64,000 nucleotides of DNA from contig CAJXYU010000004.1 of assembly GCA_913063155.1 (NCBI GenBank), positions 124,001-188,000 on the forward strand, in the 5' to 3' direction. The DNA comes from an uncultured Desulfovibrio sp. (GTDB lineage Bacteria > Desulfobacterota > Desulfovibrionia > Desulfovibrionales > Desulfovibrionaceae). This document shows positions 15,515 through 32,633 of the stretch, one piece after another (the stretch's first letter is position 1; each line of letters begins with the position of its first letter). The notes beneath the pieces were generated by a model. It did not search any database and was not told the origin of the DNA. It saw only the letters and a program-made list of their open reading frames with translations. A program made the translations under genes and the position numbers.

Positions 15515-15590
15515 GGTCGCATAGCTCAGTTGGGAGAGCGCAGCCTTCACACGGCTGAGGTCACAGGTTCAAGCCCTGTTGCGACCACCA
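15515..15590 (+). tRNA. tRNA-Val (anticodon CAC)
   Basis: A full cloverleaf: 7-bp acceptor stem GGTCGCA/TGCGACC, D-arm AGCTCAGTTGGGAGAGC, anticodon stem CAGCC/GGCTG around loop TTCACAC (anticodon CAC), and T-arm ACAGG-TTCAAGC-CCTGT. The discriminator A and CCA are encoded in the DNA. It lies 50 bp downstream of rnfB and marks the left boundary of the accessory island. Confidence 0.96.
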
Positions 15591-15645: not shown

Positions 15646-15794
15646 CGCCGTGCGATAATCAAGCCCCCTTTCGCGTTGCAGGATGTGAAAGCCTTTTACA
15701 GTTCCCGAGCCTGAAGCTCACAAAGCAAAACGCCCTCCCGGGAAGTTCCGGGAGGGCGTCTTTGTTTCAGGAAGTAGTCGTGAAATCACAGCGT
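15646..15794. repeat. island-flanking direct repeat, left copy
   Basis: About 149 bp sharing extended blocks with 31977-32147 in the same orientation: CGCCGTGCGATAAT at the start, TTTCGCGTTGCA, ATGTGAAAGCCTTTTACAGTT, a GC-rich hairpin with arms ACGCCCTCCCGG/CCGGGAGGGCGT (15730-15759), then TCTTTGTTTCAGGAAGTAGT and TCACAGCGT at the end. The hairpin plus TTTGTTT could also act as a terminator. Similarity stops sharply after CACAGCGT. A truncated third copy sits at 17393-17433. Confidence 0.8.
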
Positions 15795-17392: not shown

Positions 17393-17433
17393 GGCCGGAG
17401 CTCGCAAACGAAAACGCCCTCCCGGGAAGCCCC
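17393..17433. repeat. truncated third copy of the island-flanking repeat
   Basis: The 41 bases (GGCCGGAGCTCGCAAACGAA to AAGCCCC) match the part of the right-hand copy that includes the first hairpin arm, then diverge before the second arm. The CRISPR array's trailer repeat begins 24 bp further on, so the array end abuts a broken copy of the same repeat that flanks the island. Confidence 0.65.
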
Positions 17434-17457: not shown

Positions 17458-18954
17458 CGAATTATCCCCGTGCGTGCGGGGAACACATTTCGTGAATCGA
17501 GGTATCTCCTTGGATATACGGTTCATCCCCACGTGTGTGGGGAACACCCTAGGGCCGCCACACGCTCCGCCATTTCCTGCGGTTCATCCCCACGTGTGTG
17601 GAGAACACTCTGCCAGATCGTAGAGGCCAAGCCCTTCATGCGGTTCATCCCCACGTGTGTGGGGAACACTGAACCCGATTGCGACGTCAAGCTGAATTGG
17701 CCGGTTCATCCCCACGTGTGTGGGGAACACGTCAATTTTTCCTGCGGCCTGTGTGGTCTGTCTCGGTTCATCCCCACGTGTGTGGGGAACACCGCGTGCC
17801 TGCGGTGAACGGGGATGACAAAGCCGGTTCATCCCCACGTGTGTGGGGAACACTATTGGTTTGTATGAGTATGTGCATTATGGCTCCGGTTCATCCCCAC
17901 GTGTGTGGGGAACACTTTCCAGCAAATGGCGTCCAGGGTGTCCCCGTCCGGTTCATCCCCACGTGTGTGGGGAACACTTTTCAGCAAGAATCCAAGTGGG
18001 CCGGAGCGTCGGTTCATCCCCACGTGTGTGGGGAACACAAAATAGCAGTAGGTGTCATTACAATAAAGTACGGTTCATCCCCACGTGTGTGGGGAACACG
18101 GCCTACGCTGGAGCATGTAGGCGAGCTGTTCCGGTTCATCCCCACGTGTGTGGGGAACACACATGGTCAGGACTACCTGATAAAGGCGCAGTCGGTTCAT
18201 CCCCACGTGTGTGGGGAACACCTGACCGCGTGTTTATTACTCATCATTGTTTCCGGTTCATCCCCACGTGTGTGGGGAACACTTCTTGTGCCGCCAGTCC
18301 TCAAGGGTCCGGCGCGGTTCATCCCCACGTGTGTGGGGAACACTATGAGAAGGGTACCAACGATCCAAGTGCATCCGGTTCATCCCCACGTGTGTGGGGA
18401 ACACATGGACAAGCATGAATTGCGGGAAATGCTGCGCGGTTCATCCCCACGTGTGTGGGGAACACGTCCGGAGAATCCTGGTACGCCCAGTCAATCACGG
18501 TTCATCCCCACGTGTGTGGGGAACACTACTAAAAATTTAACTGGTAAGGCAAGAGAAGCGGTTCATCCCCACGTGTGTGGGGAACACATGGACTCCCGCT
18601 GTTCGTCGAGTGCTCTACGCGGTTCATCCCCACGTGTGTGGGGAACACCAACGCTTTCTCTCTTTTCCAGGTAATTCTTGACGGTTCATCCCCACGTGTG
18701 TGGGGAACACGCGCAGCACCACGGAAAAAAACGATCATGAAACGGTTCATCCCCACGTGTGTGGGGAACACGATTGGTGTACGCACCTACGTTGCTACTA
18801 ACACGGTTCATCCCCACGTGTGTGGGGAACACTGGGACGACTTCTTGGACGAATGGAACACAAACGGTTCATCCCCACGTGTGTGGGGAACACATCAGTG
18901 CGTGCATTAAGCGTTTTTTTGTCGCCGGTTCATCCCCACGTGTGTGGGGAACAC
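17458..18954 (-). CRISPR. type I-E CRISPR array, 25 repeats and 24 spacers
   Basis: Repeats are 29 nt (minus-strand reading GTGTTCCCCACACACGTGGG then GATGAACCG) with a period of 61-62 bp. Repeat starts on the plus strand run from 17458 through 17519, 17580 and 17641 to 18926. Spacers are 32 nt, with four of 33 nt (before 17764, 17887, 17949, 18682); no two are alike. All repeats are identical except 17580 (GGAGAACAC instead of GGGGAACAC) and the far-left one (17458-17486), which is strongly degenerate. That marks the left end as the old trailer end and the cas2 side as the leader end. Repeat sequence, spacer length and the adjacent cas set agree on subtype I-E. Confidence 0.98.
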
Positions 18955-22767: not shown

Positions 22768-23268
22768 TTATGCTTTGGTTCGGTTGGGGTAATATTCTCT
22801 GGCCCAATTCATGCGGGCCTCATCGTTCCAATACATCGTATGCCGAATTAGTCCGCCAAGGCTGGCCGCACCGCCGCACATGCCTACAAATCGAACCAGC
22901 ATACGGTAGAGCTCGTCATATTCATTGTCGCCGATGGCCAGCAATTTGCGAAAGCGAACGTCGCGCATGACCGGGGTTCCCTTACCCTCACGAGCGAAAA
23001 CAGCGGCAAAGTGTCCCTTGCGCAAAGTTCGGGCATTGGCCAGCACGCCGGCAGCCAGAGCCAGCCGTTCCAGATCGGTCTCGTCAAACTGGTAAGAAGC
23101 CAATTTCTCCGCAAGTCCATTGCGGTAGGCCGGAGACACATATACTTCCGTGCGGCTTCTGGCCCGACGCAGCTCGGCCCGTTGACCACGATTCGAGTCC
23201 AATGACTGCCACCACGACTGGACGATTTTCCTGAAACCGTCCTCCTTGAGAGCCTGATTGAGGGTCAT
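22768..23268 (-). CDS. cse2: type I-E Cascade small subunit Cse2 (Cas11)
   Basis: A 166-residue mostly helical protein (CasB/Cse2). Family traits are ADFL-like basic residues in LRRARSRTEVYVSPAY and the C-terminal GGAASLGGLIRHTMYWND. Two copies form the belly of Cascade and stabilise the displaced strand. The ATG overlaps the cas8e stop by 4 bp (ATGA), so the two are translationally coupled. Confidence 0.92.
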   Translation of the reverse strand: MTLNQALKEDGFRKIVQSWWQSLDSNRGQRAELRRARSRTEVYVSPAYRNGLAEKLASYQFDETDLERLALAAGVLANARTLRKGHFAAVFAREGKGTPVMRDVRFRKLLAIGDNEYDELYRMLVRFVGMCGGAASLGGLIRHTMYWNDEARMNWAREYYPNRTKA

Positions 23269-24836
23269 TTTACCTCCTTGGGCGGATACATTTCCATGTC
23301 GCGCAACAATTTGATGTTGAAAGCTACCAAACGTTTGTGCGCCTCCACATAGCGTTCCATGCGCTCGGCGGGGATGCCGAATTTCCCTGCGCTTTCTTCA
23401 AATAGAGTTAATGCCGAACCTAGCAACAATCGCCCCCATTCAAGGCGCAACGAGTCACGCTCGCCCTTGTTTTTAGAGCCTTCCGGCAATGCCCCAAGCT
23501 GTGCCGCATTGTGGTAAAAACCTTCTTCCGTGCAGCCCCAGAACGAATTGCTCGCGTTTTCGAAAAGACTTTTGTCCAACGAAGCCTGTTTCTTCCCAGC
23601 CTCGTTCACCAGCGCGTCCTTGAGCGCACCCAGCACGTTGCGCCGTACCTGATCGGCCGCCGCAACCATGCCTCGTATTTCCATGCCGAAGATCTTTTCA
23701 TCTCCTGTTATGGAGTAAACCGGAAAAACATGCTCGCACCATTGGCAGGCCTTGGCGTTATCCATGTCGTATCCGGCTACGCAGACCCGGCTGCCGAGGC
23801 CTCCGGCATTATTCACGCATTTGGCAGCGTGCATATGTCGCTTGGCGTCCGGCTCACCATAAACCACCCCCAGCCAGTTGCTGTAGGCCGCAATATTACT
23901 ACGTCCCTTTATGGACAAAGGCGGCTTGTTCTGCTCCAGCGTGTAGGGCGTGAGCGGATGCACCCATTCCGGGCCGTAGTTGTAACCGTTTGGGCGCGAG
24001 AGGAATTCGCACACGGCCAGCTCATGCGTTTGGCCGCAAACGTCGCATGGAGCTTTAGCAGCTTCTTCGCGTAGCACGATGCGCCGGGGCATGCCCCAGA
24101 ACGCGTGTAACGGATGCATGTCCCGCAGGTGGGTCTCTTCGTTTTTATCGCTAGTGCGAGTGGGTGAGGCCCAGGCATACACGCTGGATGCCAGTTCATC
24201 CTTTGCAGGAGCAGGTGCGATGAAACCGCTCCCCCTGCCCGGAGCCACGTTCAGCCACACGCTTTCCCAAAGGGTGTCGCCCATGACCAAGGTGGAAAGC
24301 GGCCCCCCTCCACGCATGGAGGTGCGGTTGCCACGTCCTCCGGACGGCGCAAAGGCCTGCAAGGTGAACAGGGCCGCTGCGGCACACGCTGGGCATAAGG
24401 TCTGTATCTGCCCCCGCTTGATGAAAACATCCTTGTTTTCACGCAACGTGTTCCCACCGGGCTGCTCAATCAGCAGGGAGACGACGCCGTTGAGAACGGG
24501 CTTATCCGCGTCGCTCATGGTCAGATCCTGCAGAAACCGGGGACGTTCTCCAAAGAGGTTGAAGAACTCCCGGTGGGATTCAAAGGCGCGGCGCAGCTCA
24601 TCCTGCTCGGGCGGATTTTTGAGCACCCTGTTTCGGGCGGACATGTTCTTCGGAGCAAAGGTCGTTTGCAACAGGCCAACAAGAAACTCCATGAGCGCGG
24701 CCTTGAAATCCGCCCGTTGCGGATTAAGGCTTATGGGCGGATCATCCCCCACGATCTCCCATGGCCGTATCCATTCGGTCCGCCCATCGCCAAACAGCGC
24801 AGGGAGCCATGGTTCTTCCAACAGATTGTAGTTCAT
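23265..24836 (-). CDS. cse1: type I-E Cascade large subunit Cas8e (Cse1)
   Basis: A 523-residue Cas8e (CasA/Cse1) that recognises the PAM and recruits Cas3. The canonical N-terminus MNYNLLEEPWLPALF starts at 24836 with GGAG upstream. A zinc-site-like CDVCGQTH and a CPACAAAAL pair lie in the middle, as in other Cse1 proteins. The frame stays open for 57 more codons to an ATG at 25007 that has a strong AAAGGGAGG, so a longer protein or an upstream leader peptide in the same frame cannot be excluded. The gene heads the cas8e-cse2-cas7-cas5-cas6e-cas1-cas2 operon. Confidence 0.94.
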   Translation of the reverse strand: MNYNLLEEPWLPALFGDGRTEWIRPWEIVGDDPPISLNPQRADFKAALMEFLVGLLQTTFAPKNMSARNRVLKNPPEQDELRRAFESHREFFNLFGERPRFLQDLTMSDADKPVLNGVVSLLIEQPGGNTLRENKDVFIKRGQIQTLCPACAAAALFTLQAFAPSGGRGNRTSMRGGGPLSTLVMGDTLWESVWLNVAPGRGSGFIAPAPAKDELASSVYAWASPTRTSDKNEETHLRDMHPLHAFWGMPRRIVLREEAAKAPCDVCGQTHELAVCEFLSRPNGYNYGPEWVHPLTPYTLEQNKPPLSIKGRSNIAAYSNWLGVVYGEPDAKRHMHAAKCVNNAGGLGSRVCVAGYDMDNAKACQWCEHVFPVYSITGDEKIFGMEIRGMVAAADQVRRNVLGALKDALVNEAGKKQASLDKSLFENASNSFWGCTEEGFYHNAAQLGALPEGSKNKGERDSLRLEWGRLLLGSALTLFEESAGKFGIPAERMERYVEAHKRLVAFNIKLLRDMEMYPPKEVK

Positions 24837-25141
24837 GACTTTCTCCGGATATATGTGAAATGCGATACCGTAAACAAAAAGAGCCCGACTGACCATCCAA
24901 ATATCTGGCAGGTCAGCCGGGCTACCTAATAAGGCGACAATGATAACATTATCGCCAATGGCTACAATCTGAATTGGAATTTTCCATCTGATCAGAATTA
25001 AAGCCATACAACCTCCCTTTGAGCTAGAAGATTGACTCTTGGCCCCGAAGATCGTATGTATTGATTGTCACATCTGGTCATACGATTTATTCGGGGCCTT
25101 ATTGCAGCCGGAGGTCCAATACTTCCGGCTGCTGTTTTTTT
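24837..25141 (-). promoter_or_regulatory. long structured leader of the Cascade operon
   Basis: About 300 nt lie between the predicted promoter and the cas8e start. Seen on the minus strand in order: hairpin CAGCCGGAAG/CTCCGGCTG (25106-25132); a long hairpin with arms GGCCCCGAA..ATCGTATG and CATACGAT..TTCGGGGCC (25041-25098); AAAGGGAGG before an ATG at 25007 opening a 57-codon frame into cas8e; a palindrome GGCGATAATG/CATTGTCGCC (24932-24955); and a 13-bp hairpin AGCCCGGCTGACC/GGTCAGTCGGGCT followed by TTTTTG (24923-24876), which looks like an attenuator. Confidence 0.6.
25104..25141 (+). terminator. plus-strand terminator-like hairpin in the cas leader
   Basis: GCAGCCGGAGG, a short loop, CTTCCGGCTGC, then TG and eight T residues on the plus strand. 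It is an excellent intrinsic terminator for a transcript antisense to the cas leader; a candidate promoter (TTGACT at 25032-25037, 17 bp, TATGTA at 25055-25060) lies upstream. Confidence 0.55.
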
Positions 25142-25170
25142 TATTTACTCGTCGATATCAATCAAGTCAA
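25142..25170 (-). promoter_or_regulatory. sigma70-type promoter of the cas8e operon
   Basis: On the minus strand: -35 TTGACT (25170-25165), 17-bp spacer, -10 TAAATA (25147-25142). The start of transcription is expected near 25135, about 300 nt before the cas8e start codon. It is the best sigma70-like match in the cas3-cas8e gap and lies inside the predicted target of the solitary CRISPR unit. Confidence 0.7.
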
Positions 25171-25192
25171 GAGTGATTGCATATATACTCTT
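25158..25192 (-). promoter_or_regulatory. predicted Cascade target (protospacer plus AAG PAM) over the cas8e promoter
   Basis: On the minus strand AAG (25192-25190) is followed by AGTATATATGCA (25189-25178), identical to the first 12 nt after the solitary repeat at 25284-25311. Continuing to a 32-nt protospacer reaches 25158 and covers the whole -35 box. AAG is the classical I-E PAM. Beyond position 12 identity falls off, as expected for a guide that supports binding but not Cas3 cleavage. Confidence 0.7.
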
Positions 25193-25233
25193 ACAAAAAA
25201 TTCCAACCTATTCATAACATATTGAAATAGATT

Positions 25234-25311
25234 AAAAAAATCCCCGCACGTGCGGGGATACATTCTTCAACTGCATATATACTCGGTTCAGCCCCGCTTT
25301 GCGGGGAACAC
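25234..25311 (-). ncRNA. solitary CRISPR repeat-spacer unit (CreR/CreA-like guide RNA candidate)
   Basis: Minus strand, in order: a 28-nt repeat-like sequence (25311-25284; GTGTTCCCCGC, AAA, GCGGGG, CTGAACCG) with the I-E repeat's ends and hairpin; a spacer-like stretch starting AGTATATATGCAGTTGAAG (from 25283, about 20-24 nt); then TCCCCGCACGTGCGGGGA (25258-25241) and seven T residues. The last hairpin resembles a second degenerate repeat, shares CCCCGCACG with the array's degenerate trailer repeat, and can act as terminator. It lies 58 bp after the cas3 stop. Its 5' spacer end matches the cas8e promoter region with an AAG PAM, so it probably guides Cascade to repress the operon. Confidence 0.75.
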
Positions 25312-25329: not shown

Positions 25330-25335
25330 AGTATA
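25330..25335 (-). promoter_or_regulatory. candidate -10 element of the solitary CRISPR unit
   Basis: TATACT on the minus strand, 18 bp upstream of the solitary repeat. No good -35 is visible at 16-18 bp spacing, so it may be weak or depend on read-through from cas3. Confidence 0.35.
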
Positions 25336-25369: not shown

Positions 25370-27994
25370 TCAGTCAATAACCAGTCCGCACCGCTCGTCG
25401 TAGCGAACTGTCACGGGCCTGTCTTTTCCATCCTTTCCGGTTCCGGTCCATATGCCGGGCGAGGTCTCCCGCATGGGCAGGCAAAGCCCCCATTTTCCTT
25501 TGTCCGGCATGGATTCAATGAGCCCGTCCACGGCATCCTTGCACGACTCGGAAATGTCGCCATCGGTCAATAATCGTACGGCCAGACGAACCTCGGAGCG
25601 CACGCAGTTGTCCATGGTCGTCCCGTTGCCGTCGTCATGCCAGAGTCGCACTCCTTCATTTCCGACACGCAGCAGGCGCACCCCGTGTGAAAGCTCTCCC
25701 AAACGCGTGGGAGCCGTAACGTCACTCCCCCAAGCACAATTATCCAAGGAATACCCCGCCAAAAAATCCAGTGCTCCGAATCGAGCCATGGCTTCATCGG
25801 CACGGTCTTTGGCAAAGGCTTTCATTTCCGGGCTGTCCAAAGCTTCCGGCGCGGCCAGAAAAAGGTCCGAATAAGCACCTTCCACCAATTCTCGTGCGTC
25901 ACGCGGCAGAACAATGGCCCCCTTGGCACACAAAAGCCGGGCCGTGCGCCATAACACGGCCGGACGAGGATATACATACTGCCCTTTTTCAAACATGGCC
26001 CCGTACCAATCCCCAGCCACATCGTTTGCCGGTTCCGGCATCAATACCTGCATAAGGGCAGATTCGTAACCTGCCGGGCGTTCGCGGTCGTGCCGATGAC
26101 AACGCCCGGCACGTTGGATCATAAGCTCCATTGGCGCGAGGTCACTCTGCAGCATGTCGAAATCCAGATCCAATGATTGTTCCACGACCTGCGAGGCGAT
26201 CAGAATTTTTCCGCTCCTGTCGGCGGAAACGCTCTCTTTGCCGAACAACCGCAGGACTTCACGCTCGATTTTCGCCCTGTCGCCGCCCGTGAAACGGGAA
26301 TGGAAAACCAGCACATTCCGAGCGGAAATCCCCTTCTCTTCCACCAAAATTCTTGCAGCCTCCAATACGTCCGCAACCGTGTTGCGAATCCAGCAGGCAC
26401 AGGCCCCAGCATCAGCGGCTTTGCACAAGGTCTCAAACATTCCGGTTTCCGTATGCATGGGGCGGATGGCTACATTCAATGATCTTTGTGTACTGACGGC
26501 CAAAGCCTCGCAACCGGTGTCGGTTATCCGGGACATCAGGGGAAACGCTGTATCCGATGCTTCCGTTGCTTCCGGCAACGGTGGCACTTCCCTGTACACA
26601 AAATCGCGTCCTTCCCGCCAAGCGCCCGTCAATTTTTCGCGCAAGGCTCCCGTCATGGTTGCAGAAAGCAGGATGGCGCAGCCTCCCATCGCCGCCTGAA
26701 AACGCAACAGATTCGTCAGAAGTTCTCCGGTATAGGTGTCATAAGAGTGTACTTCGTCCACGATTAATACGGATCGGCACAATCCAAGTAAACGCAGGGA
26801 TTGGTGTTTTGCGCCTAATATTCCGAGCAGGGCTTGGTCCACTGTGCCCACGCCGCACGGCGCCAAAAGGGCCTTTTTTCGGCTGTCCGCCAGCCAGTGG
26901 ACACAAACGCCGCGGCCGTCTGCGTCATCCTCTTTTCGTTGTGCATCAAGCCCTGCGGTGTATTTTTCGTTGAGAAACGCACTTCCATGCGCAAGCGCAA
27001 GAAAAATGTCTCGATCAAACAGAGCCTGTTTCCCCTCGGCAAGGCGCTCATACATGGCGTTTGCCGTGGCCATGGTGGGCAGTCCCACATACAGGCCGGA
27101 GGCGAAGCCAGCCCGCATCAAACGGTGCGCAGCGAGCAACGCAGCCTCGGTCTTACCTCCGCCAGTCAGGTCTTCGATAATAAGCATTTCCGGCCCGGCA
27201 GGTTCCGGCAGGTCCAGAACCGCCTGCTGCATCCCGCTCGGAGTGTATTGTTGCAAATGAGGCAGTAGATCGCCGAATTTCACCGTGTCCGTCGCGTGTG
27301 CCTCTGTAAACCCAAGTGCGGCCACAACTTCGGCTGCTTGCTTTTGCGCAATCGGCCAGTAGGTTTCAAACCCGTTCCACCGGCTAACTGGCTTGAACCA
27401 TCGCTCATTGGAGCCAATCCAGTCCGAGAGAATGATCAATCCCGCCGCAAACCATGACAATGGTTCCAACTCCACTTCGCGGAATTCTTCGTATGATTCA
27501 TGCAGGAAGTGCGCAGCCATTTCGTTTACAAACCATTTGGCATCATCCAGAACGGTGAAACAGGACGGTCCGGGATTGCACATTTCCGCAGGCAAGCCAT
27601 GGTGGCAAAGTGCGGCTGTCAGCAGCGGTTTCAATGAGAATTCGTCCGGTAGGTCCAATTGTTCCCATGGGCAAATCTCTTCCCAGATGGCAAGTCCGTA
27701 TTCCGTATGATGATGAGCATAGCCACCGTCAGGATGGCCGAGCGTTTCACCCAAAGGGAGGACCAAGCGTTGAAAACCGGGGTGAAATTTGCCCAGATCA
27801 TGACACGCGGCAACAAAAAGGAGCAATGACTGCACATGATTATGGGGCATCGGCGCGAGGTCAGCCATACGCTTGGCCCAAAGCGGATTTTCTTTCAGAA
27901 GCCGCTCGGCAACGGCCGCAACGTCAAGGCAGTGGTGTCCAAGATGGTGCCAAGCCCCATTCGGAAAGGTTTTTCCCCAATAATCATGCTGCAT
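25370..27994 (-). CDS. cas3: type I-E CRISPR helicase-nuclease Cas3
   Basis: An 874-residue fusion of HD nuclease and DExH helicase. HD part: HHLGHH (about 16-21), H65-D66 in AACHDLGKF, and distal histidines in YAHHHTEYG and CHHG. Helicase part: GGGKTEAA (Walker A), DEVHSYD (motif II), LLSATMTG (III), VVEQSLDLDFD (V) and QRAGRCHRH (VI). It is recruited by Cascade at R-loops and degrades the target. The ATG at 27994 has AGGAGG 7 nt upstream. All motifs are intact. It is separated from cas8e by a 533-bp gap holding the regulatory unit, so its expression can be uncoupled from Cascade. Confidence 0.97.
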   Translation of the reverse strand: MQHDYWGKTFPNGAWHHLGHHCLDVAAVAERLLKENPLWAKRMADLAPMPHNHVQSLLLFVAACHDLGKFHPGFQRLVLPLGETLGHPDGGYAHHHTEYGLAIWEEICPWEQLDLPDEFSLKPLLTAALCHHGLPAEMCNPGPSCFTVLDDAKWFVNEMAAHFLHESYEEFREVELEPLSWFAAGLIILSDWIGSNERWFKPVSRWNGFETYWPIAQKQAAEVVAALGFTEAHATDTVKFGDLLPHLQQYTPSGMQQAVLDLPEPAGPEMLIIEDLTGGGKTEAALLAAHRLMRAGFASGLYVGLPTMATANAMYERLAEGKQALFDRDIFLALAHGSAFLNEKYTAGLDAQRKEDDADGRGVCVHWLADSRKKALLAPCGVGTVDQALLGILGAKHQSLRLLGLCRSVLIVDEVHSYDTYTGELLTNLLRFQAAMGGCAILLSATMTGALREKLTGAWREGRDFVYREVPPLPEATEASDTAFPLMSRITDTGCEALAVSTQRSLNVAIRPMHTETGMFETLCKAADAGACACWIRNTVADVLEAARILVEEKGISARNVLVFHSRFTGGDRAKIEREVLRLFGKESVSADRSGKILIASQVVEQSLDLDFDMLQSDLAPMELMIQRAGRCHRHDRERPAGYESALMQVLMPEPANDVAGDWYGAMFEKGQYVYPRPAVLWRTARLLCAKGAIVLPRDARELVEGAYSDLFLAAPEALDSPEMKAFAKDRADEAMARFGALDFLAGYSLDNCAWGSDVTAPTRLGELSHGVRLLRVGNEGVRLWHDDGNGTTMDNCVRSEVRLAVRLLTDGDISESCKDAVDGLIESMPDKGKWGLCLPMRETSPGIWTGTGKDGKDRPVTVRYDERCGLVID

Positions 27995-28108: not shown

Positions 28109-31100
28109 TTAGTTGCACCTGTTGAACTGTTTCTTGGAAACTACGCGCTTTAGCGTCTTAAGAACGTCATCCCGCACGCTCTCCGCTTTGGTATTTACAT
28201 ATAGAATCGAATGCTCAACCCTGGCCATTGCTTCATCGCGACTCGCAGACAACCAGTTGAAGGAACCTTCAACCAGAGTCCGATTGTCCATTATCAAAGT
28301 CTTGTTGTGAATGCCGTCCGCAAAGACGAGCTGAACCCCCGATTCACGAATACTATATGAAATATTCTCCAGCATTCCTCTTTGATTATTACATGCCTTC
28401 AAAGCCAAACTGGAATCGGAAAACACTTTCACACCAACCCCACGCTCGATTGCACTTCTGAAATAGTCTATGATATTATCAGCTTGGATGGCATTATTAC
28501 TTAAAAATGGTGAGACTATAACAACTTCTTCCCTTGCCTCATTAAGGGCTGACACGAGCACCTCGCGATGGCGCTCAAGGGTTCTCAAATGCTCCACCTT
28601 GTCCGCCGTGATATCGCGTTGAGCAAGCTCAAACCCGGGCAAAGCATTCGCCTCATTACTGGCCAAAAGGTGATTTGCCAGAATACGCGACGGAGCACCC
28701 TTCCCTTTACGAAACAACCCCATATTGCCAAAAACAATAAAGGAGTGCTTGGCCCGCGAGACGGCAACATTCAACATGTTGACCCCTCTATCGAAAAAAG
28801 GAGTTCTAACGTCTTCAGGGCCATAAACGGGTGAGAAAATAACGATTGGCCGCTCTGCTCCCTGAAGGCGATGAACTGTGCCGATTTTCATGCCGTTTAC
28901 GTCTTTTGGCAGCATATCGTTAAGGAGCTTTTTGATGGTCCATTCCTGCGCCTTGAACGGAGTGATAATGCTCACCACATCTGAAAGAGATTTGCTTGAG
29001 TTGTAGTGCTCCAAAATATCGCTTCGATTCGCCTGAAGCCACTGTACAATGTTTTTAGCTTCATACTCATTTTTCCAACTGCCGCCGCCTTTCGAGCCTT
29101 TTGAGGGGATATGCGCGTAAGCCATGGGCGGGAAGAGCTGAGAAGAAGGAGGACTCGTATGCACCTCCAGTTGAGGATAAACAAGGTCTTTACAAAAGGA
29201 GATGATGCTTTCATGACATCGGCGGTGCTCAAGAAGGTACATCCCGCGTTCGGCAGCCTTCTGGCCTCCCACCATGCAATGATAGGGGCAGGCCGCCTGA
29301 GCCATCATCATGATGCTCCCTTTTGAGGCGGATTTCTCGTGCGGCATACCGTCCTCAGCACCGATGTACAACTTATGTTCCCTCATGTTCCCCAAATCAA
29401 CAGATGGGGGAATTTGATACACAGGCTCAATCTGATAGATATCGCCGACAACAAGAGCCTTTTTCGCCAGTGAAAACACTGCGGCTGCCTTGTCAGGTGC
29501 GGACTGACCGGCTTCATCAATAATAAGCAGGTCGATAAACTCATATTGATAATCATCAAATGACTTGAAGAACTTGGGAAGCATGAACAATGTGGAGACG
29601 ATACATGGAGTCAGCTTTGCGATACGCTTCCACCGGACATCGTCTGAAATGAATTTCTTACTGTCGCTTTGGAGAACCTCTTCCAGCCAAAGCGCTTCAT
29701 AATAATGGACAGCAAGGATAAACATACGAAAACGATTTCGCTTATCCAAATGATCCAGAAGCGAGTACAGACCTGTTCGTGAAAACTCCGGGGTTATGTC
29801 CATTGGTTTCAGTGCGTTTTCAAGTGCCTCAAAACGCTCGTCAATACGCCGAATGACATGTTCTACCCGACTTTTTTCCTCCTTGAGACCTTCCAAGGAG
29901 TTTAAGGGAGAAGCCAAATCACCCTCCGCTTCCTTGTGCTCCTCCGCTGCAATCAGCCTTTGACTCTCCAGGAAGCTCTCTATCGACTGGATGCTCTCGA
30001 ATTCATGCTCGGTGTAATGCATCCCGTTCTTAAGCAAGAAAGCTTTAGCTCGAGCAGCCTTACGTTTCTTGATCGGGCGTAAAAAGGCGATATAGTCCTC
30101 CCACCACGGCTCCCGGGACAATGCGAGCGCTGCCAGCTCAAGAGCCCTCTTTCGAGCCTCAAGCGTCTTGCCGGCTTGTGTCACAAGCTGCTTCTTTACA
30201 GCGATTTCCTCTCGTAAAGCCAATTCCCCTTCTTCGATCTCCCCCAAACTGGTTTCAGCATTTTTCCTGGCTTCAGCATCTTTGGAGCATTGTCGCCAAA
30301 GAGCCAAAATATCTTTCGCATTCTCATGGAATTGAATCATTTCATTTCGTAATTTTTCCCTGATCCTTATCAAGGATTTATCCCGCTGAGACTCTGTACA
30401 AACCTTTAACTTATCGCCGGAATACACTTCATAATTTTCAACAAAGCCATCATAAGCCCGTGAGATGAATTCCGGCTCTTCAAATTCATCGAAATACCCT
30501 TGGAGCTTCCCTTTCCGAAACACGGTGAGGAGATTCATATGAGGATCAATCTCTTTCGCGCTGGAAACAGCGTACGACCCGAGGCTCGACACCTCCTCAG
30601 GCAGCCACCGTTTGACCAAAGGATCAGAGGAGTCCTGAGATAATATCTCACCAAAATCACGAATAATATTTGTTACAGCCTGATTATTGGCCGATGTGGC
30701 AACAATGACCGGAGGGTCCGCAACGCCTTTCTCCGCATCAAGAACGGACTTCACCCACAATGAAGCAATGGCGCTTTGCAGCAGTGTGGTTTTCCCGGTT
30801 CCTGGAGGACCGTTGACAGCCAGCACCTCCCCGTCATTTACAGAAAAAAAGTGATGAATTGATTCTCGTTGGCTTCGTCCGAGACCATAATCAGCTGTCA
30901 TTTGACCCACGTGCAACGCGGCAGCGACATCAACCTCTTGCGACAAGGAAAGAAGATCCCGCTCAACTGGATGTAAACCAAGAATGGACTGGTACAGTTT
31001 CGGAGGGCTCTCTCGTTCAAGCAAATCTTCATAAAGCGACTTGATATGCATTGTGGACGAGAATTGCCCTGCGCTGGAAAATAATTGAGTTTGCCACTCG

Positions 31101-31672
31101 ACGATATACTCCACCTCACCAAAGACTATTCCCCCCTTCAAGGGGATGTCCAGAAGCGTCCTTATGAACTCTTTGCAATAAGTAAGATACTGTGGCCAAC
31201 CATTGAGTTCCGACGTCCAACCATTCTCTGTTTGATAAGTGTCGACGGCATCAACAGAAGATAGGATAATCGTTTTATCTTCAGCCAAAGGAGCAAGATA
31301 GTCTCGGGGTATCCACGGAAGTTTCTTTTCAACAGGCTCCACTCGTCCCGTATCGTCGACCTGGCAAGGCATAAGAACCGGAGTGATGGTATTTGGGTAA
31401 CCATAAAAAGTCTGGCCATGCCTGCGTTTCAGCTTCAACCGAACAGGAGCCGCAACGCCTTGGACAATCTTGATCGATGAAGCATGTTCATCAGAACTTT
31501 TTTTCTTGAAGAAATGCCGAATCAATTCCGTAGGGATATACCCACTATCAAGCATCCCTGCCTTTAGGACGGCCGACTTTGACGTGCTATTCTCCCCCAC
31601 GGATTCCAGAATCATCTCATCCGCAAGACTATCCCGATAATAACCAGTATAATTCGTTACATATTCGCTCAT
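28109..31672 (-). CDS. SF1 helicase with C-terminal PLD nuclease domain, type II Mokosh-like
   Basis: A 1187-residue protein. The helicase is of the DNA2/Upf1-like COG1112 group: GPPGTGKTT (about 290), a long coiled-coil insert (about 450-640), IIDEAGQSAPD (about 717), VVGDIYQIEPV, and VHRLQGAERPIVIFS. The C-terminus has a phospholipase-D-type nuclease domain with HNKTLIMD (about 1120) and GSFNW. A single protein joining this RNA-type helicase with PLD is the layout of MkoC of type II Mokosh, a known anti-phage system; the assignment rests on architecture only. It is visibly richer in A/T than its neighbours. It lies 114 bp upstream of cas3, on the same strand. Confidence 0.72.
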   Translation of the reverse strand: MSEYVTNYTGYYRDSLADEMILESVGENSTSKSAVLKAGMLDSGYIPTELIRHFFKKKSSDEHASSIKIVQGVAAPVRLKLKRRHGQTFYGYPNTITPVLMPCQVDDTGRVEPVEKKLPWIPRDYLAPLAEDKTIILSSVDAVDTYQTENGWTSELNGWPQYLTYCKEFIRTLLDIPLKGGIVFGEVEYIVEWQTQLFSSAGQFSSTMHIKSLYEDLLERESPPKLYQSILGLHPVERDLLSLSQEVDVAAALHVGQMTADYGLGRSQRESIHHFFSVNDGEVLAVNGPPGTGKTTLLQSAIASLWVKSVLDAEKGVADPPVIVATSANNQAVTNIIRDFGEILSQDSSDPLVKRWLPEEVSSLGSYAVSSAKEIDPHMNLLTVFRKGKLQGYFDEFEEPEFISRAYDGFVENYEVYSGDKLKVCTESQRDKSLIRIREKLRNEMIQFHENAKDILALWRQCSKDAEARKNAETSLGEIEEGELALREEIAVKKQLVTQAGKTLEARKRALELAALALSREPWWEDYIAFLRPIKKRKAARAKAFLLKNGMHYTEHEFESIQSIESFLESQRLIAAEEHKEAEGDLASPLNSLEGLKEEKSRVEHVIRRIDERFEALENALKPMDITPEFSRTGLYSLLDHLDKRNRFRMFILAVHYYEALWLEEVLQSDSKKFISDDVRWKRIAKLTPCIVSTLFMLPKFFKSFDDYQYEFIDLLIIDEAGQSAPDKAAAVFSLAKKALVVGDIYQIEPVYQIPPSVDLGNMREHKLYIGAEDGMPHEKSASKGSIMMMAQAACPYHCMVGGQKAAERGMYLLEHRRCHESIISFCKDLVYPQLEVHTSPPSSQLFPPMAYAHIPSKGSKGGGSWKNEYEAKNIVQWLQANRSDILEHYNSSKSLSDVVSIITPFKAQEWTIKKLLNDMLPKDVNGMKIGTVHRLQGAERPIVIFSPVYGPEDVRTPFFDRGVNMLNVAVSRAKHSFIVFGNMGLFRKGKGAPSRILANHLLASNEANALPGFELAQRDITADKVEHLRTLERHREVLVSALNEAREEVVIVSPFLSNNAIQADNIIDYFRSAIERGVGVKVFSDSSLALKACNNQRGMLENISYSIRESGVQLVFADGIHNKTLIMDNRTLVEGSFNWLSASRDEAMARVEHSILYVNTKAESVRDDVLKTLKRVVSKKQFNRCN

Positions 31673-32633
31673 GGTTTAAAGAACATACACAACGAAGACT
31701 CAATCACCAATACCCAAAAAATGATCATGTAAAATAAGCAAGCAGAGTTCCTACCGGCATATACCGCCAGGTCGCATCCTCGTCGTTATATAATTAGCAA
31801 CAAAATCAAAAGGATAATCAAGTAGCGAGGGCGCGTCGAATCTCCTTTTTTTCTGGCCTTGGTTACACGCCGGCATACATTTGAGTGCAGAGAATGTCCT
31901 AGGGTGACTGGAAGGCATCCTGCGCATCAACAGCCCCTACAGGACAGACCTCCGCGTAAACTCCACATGCCCAAAGCGCCGTGCGATAATTCGCGGGCAT
32001 CTGTGCGATAATTGAGCCGCTTTTCGCGTTGCAGTATGTGAAAGCCTTTTACAGTTTTCCTGGCCGAAGCTCACAAACGAAAACGCCCTCCCGGGAAGCC
32101 CCGGGCGGGCGTCTTTGTTTCAGGAAGTAGTCGTGGAATCACAGCGTATGTCAGCCCAGATCCTGAAAGTGTCGGCACGCAATATCGAAGTAAGCCCGGC
32201 CTGATGCAATCCAGGCTTTCCTTTTTTCTAACGTCGCTCAGTGGTCCAACAAAGTGGCCCCATATATCTCCGATTATCTCAGTTCCAGCCTAGACGTGGT
32301 AATTTACGCAATATTAGCCAGTATTACAGCTTTACTTGTTAGTAAAACACTGCTCTCTGAGGACACATCAACGAGACCGGGAAAAGTGGGCAATACAGTG
32401 ACTAACATCATTTGGTATATTATCCCGACATCGGCCCTTTTTTCCCTTCCTTGCAGCTCTCAAAAGACAGGATGAATTCACCTTCACCACAACCTCCCGT
32501 TGGCTGACTGATGTTGTTACAGTAAGGGAAAAACCTTTTCAGAAACGACCATCCCGATATATCCCGGATCACCCCGATAATCTCACACCCACTACCTAGT
32601 TATCCTGTACACTATTAGAATCATGAGAAAATT
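31673..32633. other. gene-poor right edge of the island
   Basis: About 960 bp without a convincing gene. It contains the right copy of the flanking repeat (31977-32147), an imperfect AAGCC/GGCTT hairpin with a T-rich tail (32190-32230), and a plus-strand 73-codon frame at 32254 (GTG start, no ribosome-binding site) coding for a hydrophobic peptide that I do not accept as a gene. Confidence 0.5.
31977..32147. repeat. island-flanking direct repeat, right copy
   Basis: A 171-bp direct copy of 15646-15794 in the same orientation. Shared blocks include CGCCGTGCGATAAT, TTTCGCGTTGCA, TATGTGAAAGCCTTTTACAG, the ACGCCCTCCCGG hairpin arm, and GTCTTTGTTTCAGGAAGTAG to CACAGCGT. It has about 22 extra bases near its start, where TGCGATAATT is repeated. 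The two copies enclose the methyltransferase, CRISPR-Cas and helicase genes. Confidence 0.8.

Follow-up and report, generated by a model that had tools for sequence, protein, structure and literature searches.

Between the cas3 and cas8e genes of a type I-E CRISPR-Cas locus from an uncultured Desulfovibrio sp., a short CRISPR-like unit stands apart from the cognate array, and the beginning of its spacer recurs beside a neighboring promoter. What might such a unit control? We address this question in the window, meaning the whole stretch of 64,000 nucleotides analyzed here, and in related cas8e loci. Pfam matches to the neighboring genes correspond to type I-E, comprising Cas3, Cse1, Cse2, CT1975-like (which we take to be Cas7e), Cas5, CRISPR_assoc (presumably Cas6e) and Cas1. 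All elements of the CRISPR-cas locus given below by coordinate lie on the minus strand, on which the order from cas3 (25370..27994; Cas3_HD and Cas3-like_C_2 domains) to cas8e is repeat, spacer, hairpin-terminator, AAG with a copy of the seed, promoter, about 300 nt, and cas8e. The cognate array, with 25 repeats of the consensus GTGTTCCCCACACACGTGGGGATGAACCG, occupies 17458..18954.

The unit begins behind a possible −10 element (TATACT, 25330..25335), proposed from its sequence. Its first repeat (25284..25311), placed by coordinates and by repeat alignment, is 28 nt long and aligns to the 29-nt array repeat with four mismatches and one gap. Specifically, its 8-nt handle, CTGAACCG, is identical to the array handle, ATGAACCG, at 7 of 8 bases. 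A spacer-like sequence of 23 nt follows (25261..25283), compared with 32-33 nt in the cognate array, and then a repeat-like hairpin (25234..25260) that is fused to an intrinsic terminator. A preliminary description of this DNA had spoken of a lone repeat; that repeat is real, but it is not alone, as the second hairpin is also repeat-like. Degenerate repeats, a terminator inside the second repeat and a 23-nt spacer rule out an ordinary CRISPR array. This anatomy is that of a creA-like gene with degenerate repeats of the cognate CRISPR, as found in the CRISPR-regulated toxin-antitoxin modules called CreTA, and in two-repeat creA genes the second repeat likewise lies on the 3′ side of the unit.

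The first 12 nt of the spacer (from 25283) recur immediately after an AAG PAM (25190..25192), just upstream of the −35 element of a candidate repressed promoter. Within the corresponding 32-nt target (25158..25189), the seed match (25189-25178) is 12/12 from position 1 with no extended match thereafter, in agreement with the earlier claim that identity stops after the seed. The promoter (25142..25170) has the form TTGACT-17-TAAATA, with its −35 at 25170-25165 and its −10 at 25147-25142. The repeat, the AAG, the 12-nt copy and both promoter hexamers that had been described before are thus all present, although TAAATA is weak (3/6 consensus bases) and the promoter was not listed by a consensus scan. 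CreTA likewise has a partial seed match beside a PAM in the promoter of a neighboring gene; here that promoter is a weak match to consensus. Dinucleotide shuffling of the downstream gap (20000 replicates) produced the 12-mer once, counting both strands, never produced it behind an AAG, and produced AAG with positions 1-5 and 7-11 once. In the 4.3-Mb genome, AAG followed by AGTAT.TATGC occurs a single time, at the target site.

Among 348 genomes of the class, a profile built from four Cas8e proteins of the same genus located cas8e in 26; a contig scan with a single Cas8e as query gave no matches. We searched upstream of each cas8e by eye, aided by a repeat pattern, and removed by eye those repeat-like matches that fell within coding sequence or true arrays, which left 16 of the 26 class loci with a solitary unit. 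The other ten (L004, L005, L010, L012, L014, L015, L017, L020, L023 and L024) carry no unit; L012 and L014 have true arrays upstream of cas8e, and in L020 a ParE-like toxin and a possible antitoxin are visible by eye at about −640 to −200 of cas8e. The set of 17 loci used below comprises the 16 class loci plus L008, from extra genome contigs. The L008 record, which has a unit, is titled Spirochaetia, and that of L007, which has none, is titled Verrucomicrobiota; either may be mis-binned. Nine cas8e loci of the phylum outside the class (L034-L042) revealed no unit by eye in the upstream stretch, which in L042 covered 508 bases. A DNA search of the gap against 60 relatives returned the genome itself and one 35-nt piece only, which lies in G017 on a different contig from that genome's cas8e.

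If the unit guides Cascade, then spacer and target should have changed together. The preliminary description had named such covariation as a check on its mechanism, in which a crRNA-like RNA with a partial seed places Cascade at a promoter, and independent drift as the refuting outcome. We scored spacer positions 1-5 and 7-11 against every plus-strand PAM site (canonical PAMs AAG, AGG, GAG and ATG) in the roughly 700 nt upstream of each cas8e. In 16 of the 17 loci the spacer scores at least 9/10 at its own locus with a canonical PAM, whereas none of 272 pairings of a spacer with a foreign locus reaches 9/10, the maximum being 8, attained four times. The own scores sum to 155, against a maximum of 122 in 20000 random pairings, none of which reaches 155. 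The exception, L006, scores 5/10 with canonical PAMs and 9/10 solely with an AAA PAM. The score of L030 is 10/10 when the mask covers the spacer alone; a wider mask hid its target (best 6/10). The spacers differ between loci, yet each still pairs with its own promoter region (16/17), so that seed and target stay paired while their sequences diverge, and the independent drift is not seen. This covariation strongly supports the mechanism first proposed. The shuffles and the locus pairings together rule out a chance origin of the seed copy, and we regard guide-target pairing by Cascade as very highly probable.

The distribution of mismatches is consistent with the same conclusion. Matches at positions 1 to 18 number 17, 16, 16, 17, 17, 6, 17, 17, 14, 16, 12, 3, 13, 15, 10, 10, 14 and 4 (n=17); at 1-5 and 7-11, the scoring itself accounts for part of the high values. 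Mismatches are concentrated at positions 6 (6/17 matching), 12 (3/17) and 18 (4/17), compared with 10-17 matches at the other positions up to 17, and these low values are informative because the three positions were unscored. Type I-E Cascade flips out the bases at positions 6, 12 and 18, and the dips fit this property (for type I-B, see PMC8501985). Moreover, a TTGAC follows the target start by no more than 40 nt in 11 of the 17 loci (at 13-34 nt; absent from L021, L026, L027, L029, L030 and L031), compared with a background of 11.8% among all 40-nt windows of these stretches, and Cascade would therefore cover or abut the −35 element in most loci. Two loci carry more than one copy of the target, with three in L013 (at −481, −445 and −410 relative to cas8e) and two in L006 (at −356 and −323). 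These copies, spaced 33-36 nt apart, are candidates for multiple Cascade operators.

What, then, does the promoter drive? The preliminary description had named cas8e through cas2, and it held no mention of a structured RNA, of a reading frame with a Shine-Dalgarno (SD) site and an ATG at 25007, or of a terminator before cas8e. In the window, the presumed transcript carries a stable hairpin near its 5′ end (25104..25132), a second long leader hairpin (25041..25098), and an SD site (25012..25018) that is paired in the predicted fold. Next is a toxin-like mini reading frame (24924..25007), which runs for 28 codons to ALLG, reads MALILIRWKIPIQIVAIGDNVIIVALLG, and continues without a stop in the frame of cas8e. 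An adjacent transcript with an SD site, a start codon and a mini-frame is likewise found in CreTA, with the window copy lacking the stop codon. Given the absent stop and the frame shared with cas8e, the window copy of the mini-frame may have decayed, or may form part of an extended Cas8e.

Mini-frames led by an SD site occur in 13 of the 17 loci, with start codons 138-217 nt upstream of cas8e. In several loci there are two or three candidates, and the 13 were chosen by eye; when frames behind the target are ranked by a fixed rule (first the longest SD match, next an ATG start, last the spacing), the choice agrees in 12 of 13, falls on a different frame in L026 (hydropathy −0.25), and adds one in L029. 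Ten of the 13 frames have 27-36 codons with a stop, a group that the window frame resembles apart from its missing stop, and those of L006 and L021 have 16 and 12 codons. In most of them, a basic start leads into two hydrophobic segments separated by an acidic turn or a glycine turn; L031, L006 and L021 are poor examples of this pattern. The 14 frames picked by the rule average 0.92 in hydropathy, as against 0.25 ± 0.12 (maximum 0.59) in 1000 base shuffles, and the 13 chosen by eye average 1.08, as against 0.28 ± 0.13 when shuffled. In all six pairs of frames that are more than 40% identical, which share members and so are not independent, it is the second codon position that differs least; L025 and L027, for example, show 10, 3 and 19 differences at the three codon positions.

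The RNA itself is also unusually structured. Compared with 100 shuffles each, the 13 stretches of leader plus frame, whose ends were set by hand from a visible hairpin, fold with z scores from −4.3 to −10.3, and the window stretch folds with a z score of −11.1 in a standard tool, with its SD site paired. Stable toxin mRNAs whose translation is guarded have such a structured look, and the mRNAs of type I toxin-antitoxin systems are structured as well.

Counting L028, where the place is taken by a protein, a mini-frame (13 loci) or a weakly RelE-like protein lies behind the target in 14 of the 17 loci. The L028 frame encodes 98 amino acids, has no SD match of 4 nt, and gives sub-threshold matches to RelE/StbE (E 0.02) and YafQ (E 0.019); a PDB search with it returned one hit (E 0.58) and no credible solved structure. 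Pfam and NCBIfam scans of the mini-proteins gave sub-threshold hits alone and no curated family. Specifically, ten mini-proteins searched against Pfam yielded one sub-threshold FokI_D3 hit (the L013 frame) and no match to a curated type I toxin family, and the window frame had no Pfam hit, hence no KilA-N domain.

These features lead us to propose that the unit serves as the creA-type gene in a CRISPR-regulated toxin-antitoxin module of type I-E, and that the window holds a toxin module rather than a circuit for cas8e autorepression. From the sequence evidence at hand, we give this reading a probability of roughly 0.68. Given a toxin, we lean toward a peptide rather than an RNA as the toxic agent, and the product of the mini-frame is perhaps a membrane-peptide toxin.

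The alternative to be taken most seriously is that the unit acts as a CreR, guiding Cascade to a promoter that drives cas8e through cas2 and thus limiting the amount of Cascade itself. Autorepression of this kind is in print for type I-E, according to a review (PMC13131331). The boundary between the mini-frame and cas8e bears directly on this proposal. In the window, the match to CRISPR_Cse1 covers the 580-aa frame only from residue 61 onward, on which ground we reject a cas8e start at 25007 and place it instead at 24836 (cas8e, 23265..24836). An intrinsic terminator (24872..24923, stem 24923-24882), formed by a hairpin of −31.4 kcal/mol and a T-tract, stands between the mini-frame and cas8e and ends about 41 nt before the cas8e start. 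The unit-less loci L004, L010 and L005 also have hairpins with T-rich tails there (−25.0, −21.4 and −18.9 kcal/mol, respectively). After the hairpin comes a promoter-like stretch, TACGGTATCG.ATT...ATAT, which together with the cas8e ribosome-binding site spans 24841..24873 and in which 12 positions, TA.GGTATCG.ATT, are invariant among the window, L004, L010 and L005. Since relatives that have no unit conserve this stretch as well, a separate promoter for cas8e most likely lies here, after the terminator, as far as conservation can indicate function.

Outside the window, the separation of the two genes is less uniform. Of the 13 loci with a mini-frame, eight (L006, L008, L009, L011, L013, L018, L027 and L031) have a hairpin with a T-rich tail no more than 61 nt from cas8e, the tail being poor in L008, L013 and L027. 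No T-rich tail before cas8e was found in the remaining five (L016, L021, L022, L025 and L026), though the hairpin is present, and for this reason shared transcription with cas8e is possible there by read-through, as a CreR would require. The targets of L019 and L030 start 116 and 139 nt, respectively, before cas8e, and neither is followed by an SD-led frame; this is a CreR-like autorepression layout, in which the target would be at the promoter of the cas operon. In the window, a terminator and a toxin-like frame intervene between the matched promoter and cas8e. With this terminator, the conserved stretch after it, and the toxin-like frames that recur behind the target in 14 of 17 loci, cas8e through cas2 become less likely as the target first proposed, and we consider a CreR in the window unlikely.

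Several smaller observations concern this same region. In two loci from which the unit is gone, tails of mini-frames are visible by eye within about 150 nt upstream of cas8e, namely DNGIIALL-stop in L004 and the similar VLGLILILIILPA-stop in L007, as though the guide and promoter had been lost by deletion together with the first part of the frame. The homologous stretch of L010, also without a unit, keeps no open frame tail by eye. The stretch 24875-24950 of the window matches the Rfam RybB family below the gathering threshold (29.2 bits versus 40, E 0.023), probably because of the terminator hairpin.

A second alternative is leader-peptide attenuation, in which the repressed promoter would drive cas8e while the mini-frame and hairpin couple translation to read-through. 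A small frame followed by a hairpin, a similar position upstream of cas8e in 13 of 17 loci, and the fact that the window frame is in frame with cas8e are all compatible with this scheme. Yet the frame is constrained at the amino-acid level toward hydrophobic residues, by eye it has no run of codons for one amino acid, a 98-aa protein stands at that place in L028, and 10 of the 26 class loci have cas8e without the unit, all of which makes attenuation improbable. Least credible is a decayed remnant, an old mini-CRISPR whose function is lost in the window genome, since degenerate repeats, a 23-nt spacer and a mini-frame without a stop would suit it but a genome-unique 12/12 seed from position 1 and intact terminators and RNA fold do not.

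We return to the toxin-antitoxin module as the preferred reading. From the anatomy of the unit, the coevolution of seed and target, the folded RNA, the recurring hydrophobic frame and the terminator in the window, we infer how such a module may be transcribed, processed and repressed, and how it would be toxic. The unit transcript would be trimmed by Cas6e to yield a crRNA-like RNA that loads Cascade, which would bind AAG+AGTATATATGCA and cover the −35 element of the neighboring promoter. Because just about 12 bases pair, Cascade would presumably not trigger cleavage of this target. The repressed transcript, predicted to run from about 25135 to 24872, would be an extensively folded mRNA carrying a small hydrophobic frame and a ribosome site. 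Loss or inhibition of Cascade would then allow production of the peptide (or of the RNA itself), to the harm of the cell.

How does this module compare with known systems? CreTA has been characterized in type I-B (PMC8501985) and type I-F (PMC10097628). With type I-F CreTA the window shares a location between cas3 and the first of the Cascade genes, a pair of degenerate repeats, a partial seed beside a PAM, and a repressed transcript with an SD site and a mini-frame (PMC10097628). It differs in being type I-E and in having the guide and the repressed gene on the same strand, whereas they are divergent in type I-F (PMC10097628). The type I-F system of Acinetobacter has a mini-frame, yet its toxin acts as an RNA, and the stop codon of that frame is dispensable (PMC10097628). 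Type I-B CreTA of haloarchaea resembles the loci described here in that positions 1-5 and 7-11 match the target while 6 and 12 are free, the toxin promoter is repressed by Cascade, and the usual form has two divergent repeats; its toxins sequester rare tRNAs (PMC8501985). In contrast to both, the frames found here look selected as hydrophobic peptides.

Other relatives share some of these properties. CreR has been reported for types I-B, I-E and V-A, and it too is a crRNA-like RNA in the cas locus with a partial match to a promoter, serving autorepression by Cascade (PMC13131331); in the window, by contrast, a toxin-like frame and then a terminator separate the matched promoter from cas8e. CrePA likewise has a crRNA-like antitoxin, which represses a protein toxin, but CreP is typically a KilA-N protein that interferes with FtsZ, as opposed to the tiny hydrophobic peptides or the weakly RelE-like L028 protein seen here (PMC12737573). 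Type I toxin-antitoxin systems similarly have an mRNA for a tiny hydrophobic peptide (PMC11997105). However, the antitoxin here would be a Cascade guide acting on DNA and not an antisense RNA.

Because the subtype, the same-strand layout and the hydrophobic-peptide-like frames differ, the module is probably a new variant of CreTA with a putative toxin. We found no report of type I-E CreTA with hydrophobic mini-proteins in the open-licence literature, and a review of December 2025 leaves open whether CreTA-like mechanisms are widespread in other CRISPR types or whether other toxins exist (PMC12737573). A broader proposal, to which we would give even odds, is a type I-E CreTA family in which Cascade represses an exchangeable toxin, mostly a membrane peptide like those of type I systems and RelE-like in one locus, with guide and operator coevolving under the rule of a flipped base every 6 nt, and with two or three tandem operators in two loci.

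If this is true, then toxin addiction would keep many type I-E systems of the class in their genomes, and the health of the cell would be tied to a working CRISPR. The 17 loci would also supply naturally matched guides and operators, which show how few base pairs may suffice for Cascade to repress without cleavage, and loci with and without a toxin-like frame would open addiction to comparison.

The wider surroundings of the locus provide additional observations. A direct repeat of 145 nt (15650-15794 and 32003-32147, 88% identical), with a partial copy at 17393-17433, brackets the whole CRISPR-cas region and may mark the ends of a mobile island. A tRNA gene (15515-15587) adjoins this repeat. 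Just upstream of cas3, a minus-strand gene (28109-31672) encodes a large AAA/helicase-like protein with a PLD-like domain, possibly a further defense gene.
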